From positions 1 through 64,000 of the forward strand of contig CAMAQH010000010.1 in the NCBI GenBank assembly GCA_945860295.1: a stretch of 64,000 nucleotides of DNA, in the 5' to 3' direction. Positions within the stretch are counted from its first letter, which is position 1; each line of letters begins with the position of its first letter. Made by a program: the position numbers and the translations under genes. Under the pieces are notes generated by a model. That model made no database searches and was not told the origin of the DNA. It saw only the letters and a list, made by a program, of their open reading frames with translations. The DNA is from Prosthecobacter debontii. GTDB taxonomy: Bacteria > Verrucomicrobiota > Verrucomicrobiia > Verrucomicrobiales > Verrucomicrobiaceae. Shown here one piece after another: positions 37,293 through 58,264 of this stretch.

Positions 37293-37703
37293 CTATTCCT
37301 TAACGGCCTTGGATAGCGTGATCACGCCGTCAGCGCCTTTCGGCCAAGCTGCGCCCTGCTTGATCCAGTCATAGATTAGGTTCACGTCCTTGTCGGCAAT
37401 GCGATGTCCGTTCGGCGGCATGGCCTTCGGGTTCTTCGGCGGCATCTTGAGTACCATGTAGAGAGCGCTACTGTCTGGCTTGCCCGGCAAGATCACGGGA
37501 CCATTGACGCGCTTCTTGAAGGCCATGGCGCGGTTCTCCAAATTCAATTCACCGAAGAGCGCGCCAGCGTGGTGGCAGTTCACGCACTTCGAGGTGAGCA
37601 GTGGCTTCACTTGCGTTGCGAAGTCCACTTTAGCTTCCTCAGTGGCAGCGTGGACAGTGCGGAAACTTAGAATGCCGAGGAGAAGTGTGTGAGAGATTTT
37701 CAT
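37293..37703 (-). CDS. Small planctomycete-type c-type cytochrome
   Basis: 136 residues from the ATG at 37701-37703, which gives a signal peptide (MKISHTLLLGILSFRTVHA); the longer frame upstream is not credible. VDFATQVKPLLTSKCVNCHHAGALFGELNLEN contains a single haem site CVNCH in the PSCyt1 arrangement (F-x-x-x-V-x-P-I/L-L-x-x-x-C-x-x-C-H). The later MPPKNPKAMPPNGHRIADKDVNLIYDWIKQGA supplies a candidate axial Met. It would carry electrons in the periplasm. In relatives this domain is often fused to DUF1549/1553; here it stands alone, upstream of the solute-binding protein by 45 bp. Confidence 0.88.
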   Translation of the reverse strand: MKISHTLLLGILSFRTVHAATEEAKVDFATQVKPLLTSKCVNCHHAGALFGELNLENRAMAFKKRVNGPVILPGKPDSSALYMVLKMPPKNPKAMPPNGHRIADKDVNLIYDWIKQGAAWPKGADGVITLSKAVKE

Positions 37704-37830
37704 GAGGTTGGTTTCTGTGAAGAGCATGATCAATGCAGCTCTGAGATGCTGTCCTGAACTTGCCTTTGCCTGCGCGTCTATTGAGGTGCTTGATGTGTGT
37801 TTTAGACAATTATGACGTTCTTTGTCGATC

Positions 37831-39006
37831 ATGAAACGCCGCCCATTCCTCGCTGCCCTGCCACTTGCCTTTGCCTCTCTGCAAGCCGCTGATAAATCAT
37901 CCAGACTACGTGTGGCAGTGATCGGGCACACGGGTCGCGGTAACTACGGCCATGGCCTGGACACCATGTGGCTACGCATTCCTGAAACCGAAATCGTAGC
38001 TGTCGCCGATACCGATGCCAAAGGACTCGAGGGCGCGCAAAAGAAGCTGTCGGTGAGCCGTGGCTTTGCCGACTACCATCAGATGCTCACGGAGATGAAG
38101 CCGGACATCATCGCTGTCGGCCCGCGTCATCTCGATCAGCATCGCGACATGATCATGGCAGCCGTGAAGGCCGGAGCGCGTGGCATCTATGTGGAGAAAC
38201 CTTTCTGCCGCAGCCTAGAGGAGGCGGATGAAATCATCGCCGCCTGTGACAAGGCGGGCACGAAGCTGGCGGTCGCACATCGCAATCGTCAGCATCCCGT
38301 GCTGCCAGTCATCGCCAAATTGATCGAGGAAGGCCTGATCGGTCGTGTGCTTGAGATGCGCGGGCGCGGCAAGGAAGATCCCCGTGGTGGCTCGCTGGAT
38401 CTCTGGGTGCTAGGCGGTCATGTGATGAACCTGGCCTGCTTCTTCGGTGGCGATCCCGTTTCATGCAGCGCCAGCGTGCTGCAAGAAGGCAAGCTCGTGA
38501 CCAGAGAGCATGTGAAGGAAGGTGACGAAGGCATCGGCCCGCTCGCTGGCAACGAAGTTCATGCCCGTTATGAGCTGAGCAAGGGCATGCAGTTGTTCTT
38601 TGATTCGATCCAGGGTGCCGGTGTTAAAGAGGCAGCCTTTGGTCTGCAAATCATCGGCACCAAGGGCATCATCGACTTCCGTGCCGACACCGAGCCGCTC
38701 GCCCATCTACTGCCGGGCAGTCCTTTCCGTCCCGTCGTCGAGCCTCGCACCTGGGTGCCGATCACCACCGGAGGTGTCGGCAAGCCAGAGCCCATCAAAG
38801 ATCTAGGCAAACTGGTTTCCAGTCACGAAGTCGCCGGACGCGATCTCATCGCCGCCATGCAAGAGAACCGCGCCCCGCTTTGCGATGCCGAGCAGGGCCG
38901 TCAGACCATCGAGTTGATTAGCGCCATCTTTGAATCTCATCGTCTCAACGGGCAACGTGTGACCTTCCCGATGAAGACGCGCGTGAATCCGCTCTCTCTG
39001 CTATGA
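37831..39006 (+). CDS. Gfo/Idh/MocA-family oxidoreductase, exported type
   Basis: 391 residues from the ATG at 37831 (a TTG three codons upstream is also open). An Arg-Arg start with a hydrophobic run (MKRRPFLAALPLAFASLQA) suggests Tat-type or other export. The Rossmann fold starts at LRVAVIGHTGRGNYGHGLD, with VAVADTD as the nucleotide-discriminating strand and the family catalytic stretch GIYVEKPFCRSLEEADEII (EKP). Activity is NAD(P)-dependent oxidation or isomerisation of a sugar or sugar derivative; the substrate is unknown. Its stop overlaps the start of the NagA-like gene (ATGA), pointing to an amino-sugar-related job. Confidence 0.9.
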   Translation: MKRRPFLAALPLAFASLQAADKSSRLRVAVIGHTGRGNYGHGLDTMWLRIPETEIVAVADTDAKGLEGAQKKLSVSRGFADYHQMLTEMKPDIIAVGPRHLDQHRDMIMAAVKAGARGIYVEKPFCRSLEEADEIIAACDKAGTKLAVAHRNRQHPVLPVIAKLIEEGLIGRVLEMRGRGKEDPRGGSLDLWVLGGHVMNLACFFGGDPVSCSASVLQEGKLVTREHVKEGDEGIGPLAGNEVHARYELSKGMQLFFDSIQGAGVKEAAFGLQIIGTKGIIDFRADTEPLAHLLPGSPFRPVVEPRTWVPITTGGVGKPEPIKDLGKLVSSHEVAGRDLIAAMQENRAPLCDAEQGRQTIELISAIFESHRLNGQRVTFPMKTRVNPLSLL

Positions 39007-40199
39007 CCCCACCACCCGCCCTTATCATCGAGAACGGCACGATCATTCTGCCGGATCGACTCATCGAGAAGGCTAGTCTTATCTGCGAAGGCGGTCGAAT
39101 CACCGCACTTGGTAAACGCGTGAAACGCCCTCTGGACGCGCAGATCATCGACGCGCGTGGCAGCTACATCAGTCCCGGATTCATCGACATTCATGTTCAC
39201 GGCGGAGCGGGAGCGGACTTCATGGATGGCAGTGCCGAAGCGGTGCGCACAGCTTTGAAAGCCCATGCCCGGCATGGCACCACGAGCATCTTTCCCACCA
39301 CGACCACAGGCAGCCCGGAACAGATCACCGCGATGCTCTCCACCTGCCGCGAGGTGCGTGATTCATGGGAGCCCGAGCAAGGTGCGCGCATCGCAGGTGT
39401 GCATGTCTATGGCCCCTATTTCGCCGAGGACAAAGTCGGCTGTCACTCCCAGTCAGGCCGCCGCGAGCCGAGTGCGGAGGAATATGCCGCTTGGTTCCGC
39501 GATGACCTCGTTCGCATCGCCACGTGTGCTGCGGAGTTGCCGGGAGCACTCGATTTCTATCGTGCTGCAAAGAAGAAACGCTGCCTCATCACCTGCGGAC
39601 ACTCGAATGCCAACTGGGCAGAGATGGCGCAGGCCTTTCGCGCCGGAATGCGGCATGTCGATCACTTCTGGTGCGCGATGAGCAGCGTCGTTTCATTACG
39701 CAATCGCTTTGGCACGCCCATGCAGGCCAGCATGGAGCAGTTCGTGCTCGCCACGGCAGATATGAGCACGGAAGTCATCGCCGATGGCCTCCACCTCTCG
39801 CCAGAGCTTCTCGACTTCGCCTTTCGCATGAAAGGAGCAGCACGACTTTGTCTCGTGACCGATAGCAATCGCGCGCTCGACATGCCGCCCGGTCGCTATC
39901 GTTTTGGCTCGGCCAAAGATGGCTCATGGTTTGAGAGTGATGGTCTGGTTGGCCGCTCAGGTGGCAGCCTCGCCAGTGCCATCGTTGGTATGGATCACAT
40001 GATGAGACACATGCACCGCAGCACCTCAGCCGCGTTGCCTGAATCTGTCCGCATGGCCAGCCTCACTCCGGCGGAGCGCACCGGCATTGCCAGTCAGACA
40101 GGCAGTTTGGAGATTGGCAAACGAGCGGACGTGCTGGTGCTCAGTAAGCGGTTGGAAGTGAAGCGCACCATCATCGGCGGTGTCGAGGTGGTGTGCTGA
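39003..40199 (+). CDS. N-acetylglucosamine-6-phosphate deacetylase-like amidohydrolase
   Basis: 398 residues of the NagA branch of the amidohydrolase superfamily. The HxH pair is H64/H66 in GFIDIHVHGGAGADFMDG. Further hallmarks are HGTTSIFPTTTT, CGHSNA (H200), HVDHFWCAMSS (H221), VIADGLHLSPELL and VTDSN with the catalytic Asp at D287. In canonical NagA a Glu in the (L)EGP(F/W) motif ligates the metal; here the equivalent stretch is GVHVYGPYFAED with Tyr136 at that place. Deacetylation of an N-acetyl sugar phosphate is the default inference, but the metal site is altered. It is translationally coupled to the upstream oxidoreductase by a 4-bp overlap. Confidence 0.85.
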   Translation: MTPPPALIIENGTIILPDRLIEKASLICEGGRITALGKRVKRPLDAQIIDARGSYISPGFIDIHVHGGAGADFMDGSAEAVRTALKAHARHGTTSIFPTTTTGSPEQITAMLSTCREVRDSWEPEQGARIAGVHVYGPYFAEDKVGCHSQSGRREPSAEEYAAWFRDDLVRIATCAAELPGALDFYRAAKKKRCLITCGHSNANWAEMAQAFRAGMRHVDHFWCAMSSVVSLRNRFGTPMQASMEQFVLATADMSTEVIADGLHLSPELLDFAFRMKGAARLCLVTDSNRALDMPPGRYRFGSAKDGSWFESDGLVGRSGGSLASAIVGMDHMMRHMHRSTSAALPESVRMASLTPAERTGIASQTGSLEIGKRADVLVLSKRLEVKRTIIGGVEVVC

Positions 40200-56863: not shown

Positions 56864-57037
56864 GAGGGGATAGAGAGCGGATGTGATGCCGTCTCTAGGA
56901 CTAAAGTCAAGACAGGCTCATTTTTATCAGCACCAGAGCTTTGCTCAGTGCTTGACCCGACCATAAAGCCTGCGCCAGAATCGGCACTCCTTTCCAAGAC
57001 TTCCAGACTAACACCCCACTCACTTGTACTTTATTTT

Positions 57038-58264
57038 ATGAGCCGAAAAATACGTTATGGCATGATCGGCGGCGGACGTGGCGCCTTCATCGGCGGCGTT
57101 CATCGCATCGCAGCAGCAATCGACCAGCAGACAGAACTTGTCTGCGGTGCCTTCTCCTCCAATCCGCAGAAGTCCAAGGACAGCGGCGCTGATTTCTTCC
57201 TGCCTGCTGACCGCTGTTACGGAAACTTCGAGGAAATGATCAAGGCTGAAGCGGCACTGCCAGCGGACAAGCGTATGGATTTTGTTTCCATCGTCACTCC
57301 GAATCACATGCACTTCCCTGCGGCCAAGCTCGCGCTGGAAAGCGGCTTCCATGTGCTATCCGACAAGCCCGCCACCTTCAATCTCGCGCAGGCCAAAGAA
57401 CTCGCGGGTATCGTGAAAGCGTCCGGCAAACTCTACGGCGTCACTTATAACTACACGGGCTACCCGCTGATGCGCCAAGCCCGCCAGATGATCGAGCAAG
57501 GCAAGCTGGGAGAGATCCGCAAAGTAGTCGTCGAATATCCGCAGGGCTGGCTCGCCACGATGCTGGAAAACACTGGCCAGAAGCAGGCCTCCTGGCGCGT
57601 CGATCCAGCGATCTGCGGAGCCGCTGGTTGCATGGGCGACATCGGGACACACGCCATCAACTTGGCCGAATACGTCACCGGTTTGCACATCAAGGAACTC
57701 GCGGCTGACCTCACCATCTTCCTCGGCACAGAAGGCCGTCGTCTTGAAGATGATGGCAACGTGCTGCTGCGCTTCACCAATGGTGCCAAAGGTGTCTTAC
57801 ACTCCAGCCAGATTAGTGTCGGCTGTGAAAATAATCTCAGCCTCCGCGTCTATGGTGAACTGGGCGGCATCGAGTGGCATCAGCGCGATCCAAATACCAT
57901 GTTCGTCTCATCGCTCGACCAGCCGATGCAGGTCTATCGCACCAGCATGGGCTACCTCGGCAGCGCCGCTGCTGCCGCGAGCCGCACACCCGCTGGTCAT
58001 CCCGAAGGCTACCTGGAAGGCTTCGCGAACATCTACCGCAACTTCACCAACCATATCCGCGCCGTCGAAGCAGGAACCGCGCCGAACCCACTCGACATGG
58101 ACTACCCAACGATCGAGGAAGGCGTAGCCGGCATGGCCTTCATCGAAGCCGTCGTCGCTTCCTCTGCCAAAAATGCCGCTTGGACACCACTCGATTACAC
58201 GCCGAGCGAACGAGCCAAGTATGGCGATGCGACGCTGAATTCAGATCGCGGCGGACTCGGCTGA
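57038..58264 (+). CDS. Gfo/Idh/MocA-family oxidoreductase
   Basis: 408 residues from the ATG at 57038 (MSRKIRYGMIGGGRGAFIGGVHRIAAAID); the longer upstream frame is not needed. The Rossmann start is GMIGGGRGAFIGG; VSIVTPNHMHFPAAKLALESGFHVLSDKPATFNLAQAKEL has the EKP-like KP motif (SDKP). AAGCMGDIGTHAINLAEYVTGLHIKELAADLT is the catalytic-region signature GDIGxHxxxL. It is a cytosolic NAD(P)-dependent sugar or inositol dehydrogenase-like enzyme. Unlike the copy at 37831 it has no export signal. The substrate is unknown. A hairpin follows at 58330-58359. Confidence 0.9.
   Translation: MSRKIRYGMIGGGRGAFIGGVHRIAAAIDQQTELVCGAFSSNPQKSKDSGADFFLPADRCYGNFEEMIKAEAALPADKRMDFVSIVTPNHMHFPAAKLALESGFHVLSDKPATFNLAQAKELAGIVKASGKLYGVTYNYTGYPLMRQARQMIEQGKLGEIRKVVVEYPQGWLATMLENTGQKQASWRVDPAICGAAGCMGDIGTHAINLAEYVTGLHIKELAADLTIFLGTEGRRLEDDGNVLLRFTNGAKGVLHSSQISVGCENNLSLRVYGELGGIEWHQRDPNTMFVSSLDQPMQVYRTSMGYLGSAAAAASRTPAGHPEGYLEGFANIYRNFTNHIRAVEAGTAPNPLDMDYPTIEEGVAGMAFIEAVVASSAKNAAWTPLDYTPSERAKYGDATLNSDRGGLG

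Follow-up and report, generated by a model that had tools for sequence, protein, structure and literature searches.

Locus and gene identity

The window, i.e., the whole stretch of DNA that was analyzed, comprises 64,000 nt of Prosthecobacter debontii (GCA_945860295.1, CAMAQH010000010.1, positions 1 to 64,000, forward strand). The genes and residues discussed here are listed below. Row counts refer to a residue table with 56 Tyr-type and 112 Glu-type rows, which are distinguished by the residue at site 136.

37831..39006, + strand: Gfo/Idh/MocA oxidoreductase with a Tat-like start, MKRRPFLAALP (PF01408, 61 bits; 4-base overlap with the deacetylase gene)
39003..40199, + strand: Tyr-type NagA-like (CE9-fold) amidohydrolase, 398 aa (ATG start; TIGR00221, 238.8 bits; pLDDT 96.3; 2vhl, Z 56.6)
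39192..39200, + strand: HxH, His64 and His66 (56/56 Tyr-type rows)
39408..39410, + strand: Tyr136, where NagA has a Glu shared by the two metals, E131 in E. coli and E122 in M. smegmatis (alignments)
39444..39446, + strand: His148, equivalent of E. coli His143 (56/56 Tyr-type, 33/112 Glu-type rows)
39600..39602, + strand: His200, equivalent of the metal ligand His195 (168/168 rows)
39660..39662, + strand: Asp220, acidic in Tyr-type only, adjoining the metal ligand His221 (row counts)
39663..39665, + strand: His221, equivalent of the metal ligand His216 (168/168 rows)
39672..39674, + strand: Cys224, in place of the phosphate-holding Asn, E. coli N219 and M. smegmatis N212 (56/56 Tyr-type, 2/112 Glu-type rows)
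39699..39701, + strand: Arg233, carried by a short insertion and a possible counterpart of the phosphate-binding Arg227 (56/56 Tyr-type rows)
39861..39863, + strand: Asp287, catalytic Asp, E. coli D273 (54/54 readable Tyr-type rows, two of the 56 being unreadable; 112/112 Glu-type rows)

The deacetylase gene lies at the position given in the original prediction, and the HxH pair, later His residues and catalytic Asp described there can be read directly in the protein. The corresponding motifs are DIHVHG (H64, H66), VHVYGPYF (Y136), GHSN (H200), DHFWCAM (H221), ADGLH (H264) and VTDSNRA (D287). The gene is under purifying selection: a simple Nei-Gojobori count on 8 pairs gave dN/dS values of 0.03-0.20 (dS was >1 in two pairs, the highest-value pair among them). 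The score against TIGR00221, the NCBI NagA equivalog, lies above the cut-off of 225.65, a point against divergence; four other Tyr-type members fall on both sides of it (236.7, 218.6, 211.6 and 206.0). The predicted structure (pLDDT 96.3) matches the two-domain NagA fold, best with 2vhl (TM 0.91, Z 56.6, rmsd 1.6 over 381 residues); in the fold search with this model, NagA structures reached Z 48.4-56.6 and the next family 29.5.

The upstream oxidoreductase likely starts at ATG 37831 rather than at the listed TTG 37822. Its Rossmann domain was recognized by PF01408 (cut-off 24), PF02894, for the C-terminal domain, scored marginally below its cut-off (22.4 versus 22.9), and none of the NCBIfam dehydrogenase models exceeded its own cut-off. 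The oxidoreductase had been described as exported-type, with its stop overlapped by 4 bp by the deacetylase gene. The protein does look Tat-exported, its Tat-like start recurring in 13/13 orthologues compared by eye, and the overlap is confirmed: an ATGA junction is read at 39003-39006, where the oxidoreductase end (39006) passes the deacetylase ATG (39003). The same junction was seen by eye in 12/13 of the compared loci.

Active site and distribution of Tyr-type proteins

The substitution of Tyr for a metal-ligating Glu was borne out by alignment with solved NagAs and with orthologues. Tyr136 aligns with the Glu of (L)EGP in 2vhl, 7nut, 3egj, 1ymy and 2p53 (the five alignments listed, of ten distinct NagA chain sequences), and a hand count along the 1ymy line gives E131 as its E. 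coli counterpart; in the window protein, this Glu is absent as a metal ligand and Tyr136 stands instead. In M. smegmatis NagA, Glu122 serves the metal site together with His ligands, of which the HxH residues are buried M1 (alpha-site) ligands, and Asn212 binds the substrate phosphate (PMC6016474, partial text). E131 and N219 are among the most conserved NagA residues (PMC12409433, partial text).

Several other positions distinguish Tyr-type from Glu-type proteins. Position 220 is Asp in 55 and Glu in 1 of the 56 Tyr-type rows, acidic in 0/112 Glu-type rows, and again acidic in 9/9 additional Tyr-type loci; this Thr to Asp change beside the beta-6 His is linked to the Glu to Tyr change. His218 is nearly fixed in the Tyr-type clade (55/56). 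At position 224, the 112 Glu-type rows have 68 Asn, 42 Ser and 2 Cys, so the loss of Asn is weak as a single feature. A Tyr136-Cys224 cross-link was considered but seems unlikely, given the position of Cys224 at the phosphate end. The Arg233 column contains Arg in 1/112 and a gap in 108/112 Glu-type rows, and Arg233 may correspond to R227, which in NagA contacts the phosphate across the dimer, with the spacing off by one residue.

Tyr occupies site 136 in 24/24 family orthologues read (another, L025, is a fragment that lacks the site) and in 9/9 further loci that had been collected without any sequence pattern, where the linked residues recur as well. In a cross-phylum scan, the best 80 of 431 relatives had Tyr in 30 and Glu in 49 cases, with one unreadable. 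The patterns for these 80 were DHFWCAM and GF[IV]D[IV]HVH, the former of which biases the scan towards rows with Asp220 and Cys224; rows from the protein search are free of this bias. The residue table omits L118 and L123 (partial or frameshifted; L118 is Tyr in the scan), the fragment L025, L001 (= P0001), L002 (present as L231E), L003 (not NagA), L208 (short; Glu at the site) and L217 (a copy of L107), and it counts some genomes twice, e.g., L090 and L017.

Tyr-type proteins form one clade (SH-aLRT 99), present in several phyla. The clade appears in the first, unmasked tree of a thinned set of 73 rows, and also when ten trait columns are masked (a tree that omits L040, L057, L164 and L168, which have long branches, as well as L023, L024, L107, L005-L014 and thinned Glu-type rows). 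Since the trees indicate a single origin, the linked changes amount to one evolutionary observation, not 56. The proposal of a changed metal site is upheld at the sequence level, with Tyr marking a multi-phylum clade that has other fixed active-site changes. A near Glu-type relative from an Acidobacteriia MAG, L121, resembles Tyr-type proteins at His148, Cys224, Arg233, Arg235 and Pro239 but differs in retaining Glu136 and Thr220; thus, Tyr136 and Asp220 seem to have arisen on the same branch.

These patterns raise the possibility that the carboxylate has simply moved, with Asp220 replacing Glu from another strand end, the usual two-metal or beta-site center and chemistry preserved, and only the substrate pocket changed. 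The original prediction had named an alternative acidic metal-site residue as a finding that would count against it, and Asp220 is a candidate for one; if it supplied the missing carboxylate, the site would be less strange. Its restriction to Tyr-type rows, its apparent origin together with Tyr136 and its location at the barrel rim, directly after strand 218-219 of the predicted model, are all consistent with this role. On the other hand, a residue adjoining an inward-facing ligand often points away, and Asp220 might pair with His218 instead. We regard a moved carboxylate as possible, though rather unlikely.

Gene neighborhoods and Glu-type relatives

The oxidoreductase lies directly upstream of the deacetylase at 15 loci, including the window, and 2.7 kb upstream at one more. 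No orthologue was detected by tblastn (1e-10) at 41 other Tyr-type loci, a count in which L091, L098 and L102 have <1.2 kb of upstream sequence, L090 (a repeat of L017/L077) is counted once, and L025 (cut by a contig end) and L121 (Glu-type) are excluded. Profile matching did pick up a different Gfo/Idh-type protein at L095 and L100, at a distance of 3-5 kb. The suggested coupling of the two genes therefore stands for the closest relatives, where adjacency and the ATGA junction recur, and fails beyond them. The pairing is a local arrangement that says little about the reason for Tyr, and the oxidoreductase was rejected as its explanation.

Within the lineage of the window, the two proteins might still constitute one two-step pathway, as the shared junctions and adjacency would suggest. 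Besides the 41 loci without the partner, this is countered by the Tat-like start on the oxidoreductase and the lack of a visible signal on the deacetylase, which would place the two in different compartments, and by other lineages in which a sulfatase, an RmlA-type gene or a GDP-mannose dehydratase adjoins the deacetylase. A joint pathway is accordingly judged unlikely.

No common neighborhood was found across Tyr-type loci. A sulfatase adjoins the deacetylase at 4 loci (L076, L082, L094 and L093), which carries little weight because sulfatases are very common in these bacteria; an RmlA-type neighbor occurs in 3 genomes and a GDP-mannose dehydratase in 1. Small genes upstream at L103, L104, L108, L111, L113 and L123 had been considered NagB candidates by size, and this assignment was rejected: those at L104 and L113, as well as L243, are nucleotidyl transferases (L104 and L250 are the same genome), and for those at L103, L108, L111 and L123 the call was made on the initial residues only. 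As neighbors vary by lineage, they provide no pathway that would indicate the substrate.

Glu-type relatives of NagA were also present in 26 of the 28 Tyr-type genomes examined; in the other two, G462 and G465, none was found. In the family of the window, a short Glu-type protein occurs in 50/50 genomes (in some as fragments) and the Tyr-type protein in 29/50. The window genome itself has a second, Glu-type NagA-like gene, G000:C38 (302 aa), which was absent from the original prediction; it scores 172 bits with TIGR00221, below the cut-off, and lies near ROK kinase and SIS genes. The only NagB-family gene found in this genome (258 bits versus a cut-off of 236.9) is on another contig, and a tblastn search of the window with the ROK kinase and the SIS gene of this genome gave no homologue of either, in agreement with the earlier statement that no sugar-phosphate kinase or NagB is near the deacetylase. 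Nor did the ROK kinase match any of 60 Tyr-type loci at 1e-20. The Tyr-type enzyme is a paralogue, kept nearly always beside a Glu-type relative.

These observations bear on whether the protein is an ordinary GlcNAc-6-P deacetylase, a second NagA copy that tolerates Tyr. Its fold and TIGR00221 score are those of NagA, and the catalytic Asp, His ligands, His148 and candidate phosphate Arg are retained; moreover, in G462 and G465 the Tyr-type protein could be the only NagA. Nevertheless, 56/56 rows have lost two residues that rank among the highly conserved positions noted above, the Glu common to both metals and the Asn that binds phosphate, nearly all genomes examined have a Glu-type relative, and in the window genome it is this relative that lies near the ROK kinase. 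An ordinary NagA is thus quite improbable. The proposal of a substrate other than GlcNAc-6-P gains indirect support from the lost phosphate Asn and from the Glu-type relative, ROK kinase, SIS protein and NagB of the same genome, and to that extent it stands. Finally, a non-catalytic, regulatory or sugar-binding relic, suggested by the loss of a key metal ligand, is very improbable given HxH, His200 and His221 in 56/56 rows, Asp287 in every readable row and the purifying selection on the gene.

Proposed function and comparison with known systems

Overall, we favor the view, with a probability of about two in three, that the Tyr-type proteins are a distinct branch of the NagA/CE9 fold, i.e., diverged N-acyl-sugar deacylases with a rebuilt metal site. 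Functional divergence from NagA, taken separately, is likely. The branch would have had a single origin from a Glu-type NagA and been retained as a paralogue. The protein would be catalytically active, as a deacylase that depends on metal. Loss of the shared Glu would most likely leave the catalytic metal mainly in the half of the site formed by HxH and Asp287; a single metal centered there is a tentative proposal to which we give somewhat less than even odds. E. coli NagA lacks HxH, and its metal site consists of Glu, His and His, so the Tyr-type metal would occupy the opposite half. Water would still be activated by Asp287, and Tyr136 may be a weak ligand or an oxyanion or second-shell group. 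The enzyme probably acts on a different N-acylated sugar, still anionic given the retention of Arg233, His148 and Ala225 and encountered in glycan breakdown or glycan building, rather than on the main GlcNAc-6-phosphate flux. A bolder version, a new amidohydrolase metal-site subtype in which Tyr136, aided by Asp220, holds the metal as a tyrosinate inside a NagA barrel (possibly with an Fe(III)-like colored center) and a housekeeping deacetylase was thereby redirected to a different N-acylated sugar in planctomycete and verrucomicrobial glycan metabolism, is unlikely.

Because the window protein exceeds the TIGR00221 cut-off, automated annotation would call it NagA, although every Tyr-type row read departs from NagA at both the metal and the phosphate site, and pathway reconstructions in the carrier groups would then assign GlcNAc-6-P deacetylation to it. 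As a separate Tyr-for-Glu branch of the deacetylase family, it probably has another job than this name implies. If the metal site has truly been rebuilt around Tyr, these proteins are a natural experiment on the exchange of a ligand common to both metals within a well-studied enzyme fold, with Tyr136, Asp220 and the near Glu-type L121 as a comparison forming a clear test set. The titles and abstract openings of the papers listed contained no account of a Tyr-type NagA; the literature covered was mostly outside subscription, so one may already have been published.

Compared with NagA/CE9 enzymes (B. subtilis 2vhl, E. coli 1ymy/2p53, M. smegmatis 6fv3/6fv4 and human AMDHD2 7nut), Tyr-type proteins have the same fold, the two later His residues, the catalytic Asp and the equivalents of His143 and His251, and their HxH is as in B. 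subtilis and mycobacterial NagA. They differ at the shared Glu (here Tyr), at the phosphate Asn (here Cys) and at the Thr next to the beta-6 His (here Asp), and they have the short Arg233 insertion. G000:C38 belongs to the same NagA family, but it has QxN for HxH and keeps the Glu (IEGP), so that the half-site retained by Tyr-type proteins is missing from it. A superfamily precedent for another residue in place of this Glu is provided by subtype V amidohydrolases, i.e., D-aminoacylases and the GlcNAc1A deacetylase OngB, which has a large insertion domain; these enzymes use Cys in the role of the CE9 Glu, in a Cys/His/His site, and act on other substrates (PMC12017989, partial text). The window protein does not have such a site: its residue in the place of the Glu is Tyr, and its Cys224 falls at the phosphate position, three residues past His221. 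In the fold search, the N-acyl-D-glutamate deacylase 3gip ranked low, with Z 26.7. Whereas subtype V enzymes employ Cys, Tyr-type proteins place Tyr in the position of Glu, and do so within NagA's own fold.

A NagA scaffold with Tyr at the metal site

The gene in question encodes a putative deacetylase, whose own residue numbers are used throughout:

39003-40199, + strand: Tyr-type NagA-like ORF, 398 aa, start codon ATG

The protein is built on the NagA scaffold. A profile search gave 238.8 bits against TIGR00221 (nagA; cut-off 225.65), and its ten top-scoring solved chains were all NagA. The structure predicted from alignment A2 (49 rows, i.e., 38 Tyr and 11 Glu) had a pLDDT of 96.3 and a pTM of 0.94; in fold comparison, this model matched NagA structures with Z scores of 48.4-56.6 and the next family, dihydroorotase, with 29.5. 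No signal peptide was seen when the deacetylase sequence was judged by eye.

The original prediction that Tyr replaces the metal-ligand Glu (E131 in Escherichia coli NagA) is right. In five printed alignments with solved NagAs, Tyr136 is opposite the Glu of EGP, Cys224 opposite the Asn of HL[YF]NAM, and Asp220 opposite the Thr preceding a metal His. Tyr also occupies the site in 24/24 orthologues read in the window's family (L025 is a fragment lacking the site), so the trait proves more marked and more widespread than was visible at first reading. Because the metal-ligand Glu and the phosphate-site Asn were tested and both are absent, the protein is not classed as NagA; it very probably works by NagA-like chemistry.

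The Tyr-type branch and its Glu-type paralogues

Alignment A1 was used for a cross-phylum scan of 84,980 species genomes. Among the best 80 of 431 relatives, 30 had Tyr (L090-L119) and 49 Glu, and the position was unreadable in one (L123). Tyr-type titles included Verrucomicrobiaceae, Opitutaceae, Pirellulales, other Planctomycetota, Acidobacteria, a Gemmataceae and a Poribacteria MAG, although individual names may be wrong because these genomes are MAGs. The distribution is sparse: when 383 genomes were sampled from the window's phylum, Tyr-type-level matches occurred in three, all within its family, and the next best match was Glu-type (38% identity). The phylum of L110, a Tyr-type locus, yielded eight matches at 1e-75 or better in 294 sampled genomes; three were already known, and the five new ones all read Tyr. 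Two quick trees, built without bootstrap, each placed the Tyr-type rows on one side of a single branch with SH-aLRT 99 (37 such rows in a 73-row tree; 43 in a 117-row tree with ten trait columns masked). Within this clade, rows titled as different phyla are intermingled, which would mean inter-phylum transfer or wrongly binned MAGs.

Within the window's family, the Tyr type (1e-60 or better) occurs in 29 of 50 genomes; all 50 have a short Glu-type NagA relative, which in some is present as fragments. Twenty-eight Tyr-type genomes, that of the window among them, were examined: 26 also carry a Glu-type copy, and none was found in the other two, G462 and G465. The copy in the window's genome (G000) is in the following region:

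L231:8796-13191, contig 38: region with the Glu-type NagA relative (302 aa, QxN in place of HxH, IEGP)

The relative lies upstream of a ROK kinase gene, which is located about 1.8 kb beyond it, past an SDR-like gene (by eye), and overlaps a SIS-domain gene. A NagB-type protein is encoded on contig 3 (NF002557, 753.5 bits, cut-off 384; TIGR00502, 258, cut-off 236.9). The components of a GlcNAc-6-P route are therefore present without the window gene, a paralogue rather than the housekeeping enzyme. A second Tyr-type copy (56-58% identity) stands in another neighborhood in three genomes of the same genus as the window (L062:7971-9197, L063:8013-9200, L064:3487-4674); a fourth, known from a search listing alone, is G443, where there is one in-frame TGA.

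Other residues change with Tyr136. Across 168 aligned rows (56 Tyr-type and 112 Glu-type), position 220 was Asp in 55 and Glu in 1 of the Tyr-type rows versus Thr in 104, Ser in 6 and Val in 2 of the Glu-type rows, and Cys224 occurred in 56/56 versus 2/112; the scan pattern DHFWCAM favored Asp220 and Cys224, a bias from which rows obtained by protein searches were free. Arg233 (56/56 versus 1/112) and His148 (56/56 versus 33/112) followed the same division. His64, His66, His200 and His221 were each present in 56/56 Tyr-type rows, and Asp287 in all 54 readable there; nine further Tyr-type loci had the same residue set. L121, a near Glu-type relative from an Acidobacteriia MAG, resembles the Tyr type in His148, Cys224, Arg233, Arg235 and Pro239, but retains Glu136 and Thr220. 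From this residue set, Tyr136 and Asp220 seem to have arrived together, later than the pocket change, a reading that is suggestive only, because it concerns one event.

Gene neighborhoods

The original prediction also drew on pairing with an upstream Gfo/Idh/MocA oxidoreductase (PF01408). The pairing stands at 15 loci, where this gene is immediately upstream (window, L004, L006-L015, L023, L024, L118); by eye, the ATGA junction is kept in 12 and a Tat-like start in all of the 13 compared. At one locus (L005/L066) the gene is 2.7 kb upstream. No orthologue was found at 41 other Tyr-type loci, of which nine (L016-L022, L033, L034) form a group from the same family as the window; L095 and L100 have a different Gfo/Idh-type protein 3-5 kb away. 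The argument from this neighbor is thus weak. As listed, the oxidoreductase ORF (37822-39006, +) and a PSCyt1-type ORF (37293-37931, -), which lie on opposite strands, overlap at their starts; each probably begins at an internal codon, ATG 37831 in the case of the oxidoreductase. A second Gfo/Idh/MocA-like protein, by its first residues, is encoded 17 kb downstream (56948-58264, +).

In other lineages, a sulfatase gene lies 6-52 bp upstream (L076, L094, L082) or 12 bp downstream (L093) of the Tyr-type gene. An RmlA-type nucleotidyl transferase is upstream in G462 (L104/L250), L113 and L243, and a GDP-mannose dehydratase in L245. In Planctomycetota-titled G462 (L250:4333-9710), the Tyr-type gene follows the transferase after a 2-base gap and overlaps by 4 bases an epimerase/dehydratase gene, whose homologue in L243 lies about 0.6 kb beyond the Tyr-type gene. 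Sugar or glycan chemistry is a loose common theme, and many other neighbors (helicases, DUF7133, TIR proteins) have no such link. Also close by in G462 is a UDP-glucose-dehydrogenase-like gene (by eye). An Rrf2-type regulator gene (L110:7387-7986) overlaps the Tyr-type start by 4 bases, and an Rrf2-like gene (by eye; L242:7700-8149) is directly downstream on the opposite strand.

Proposed chemistry and comparison with known enzymes

As in NagA, Asp287 would activate a metal-bound water for attack on an N-acyl group. In the absence of the shared Glu, the most likely metal ligands would be His64, His66 and Asp287, and perhaps also His200; alternatively, Asp220 might restore the carboxylate. The presence of Arg233, His148 and Ala225 points to continued binding of an anionic substrate group. 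Alpha-mononuclear amidohydrolases are a known class, and subtype V members have Cys/His/His sites and other substrates (PMC12017989).

According to PMC6016474, GlcNAc-6-sulfate is accepted by the NagA enzymes of M. marinum and M. smegmatis, at a Km 7-fold higher; sulfated and nucleotide-linked amino sugars are therefore candidate substrates. The paper also describes, in M. smegmatis NagA, a buried metal bound by His56, His58, Glu122 and Asp267, a second metal bound by His188, Glu122 and His209, and substrate phosphate bound by Asn212. In M. marinum NagA, a variant with QxN in place of HxH was still active, its Km being 7-fold higher, and no activity was detected for an AxA variant; QxN occurs in E. 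coli and V. cholerae NagA, and one metal is the natural state of the E. coli enzyme (PMC6016474). Glu122 is common to both metals, and with Tyr136 in its place the window protein therefore lacks the sole residue serving both. It keeps the HxH half of the site, whereas E. coli NagA lacks that half.
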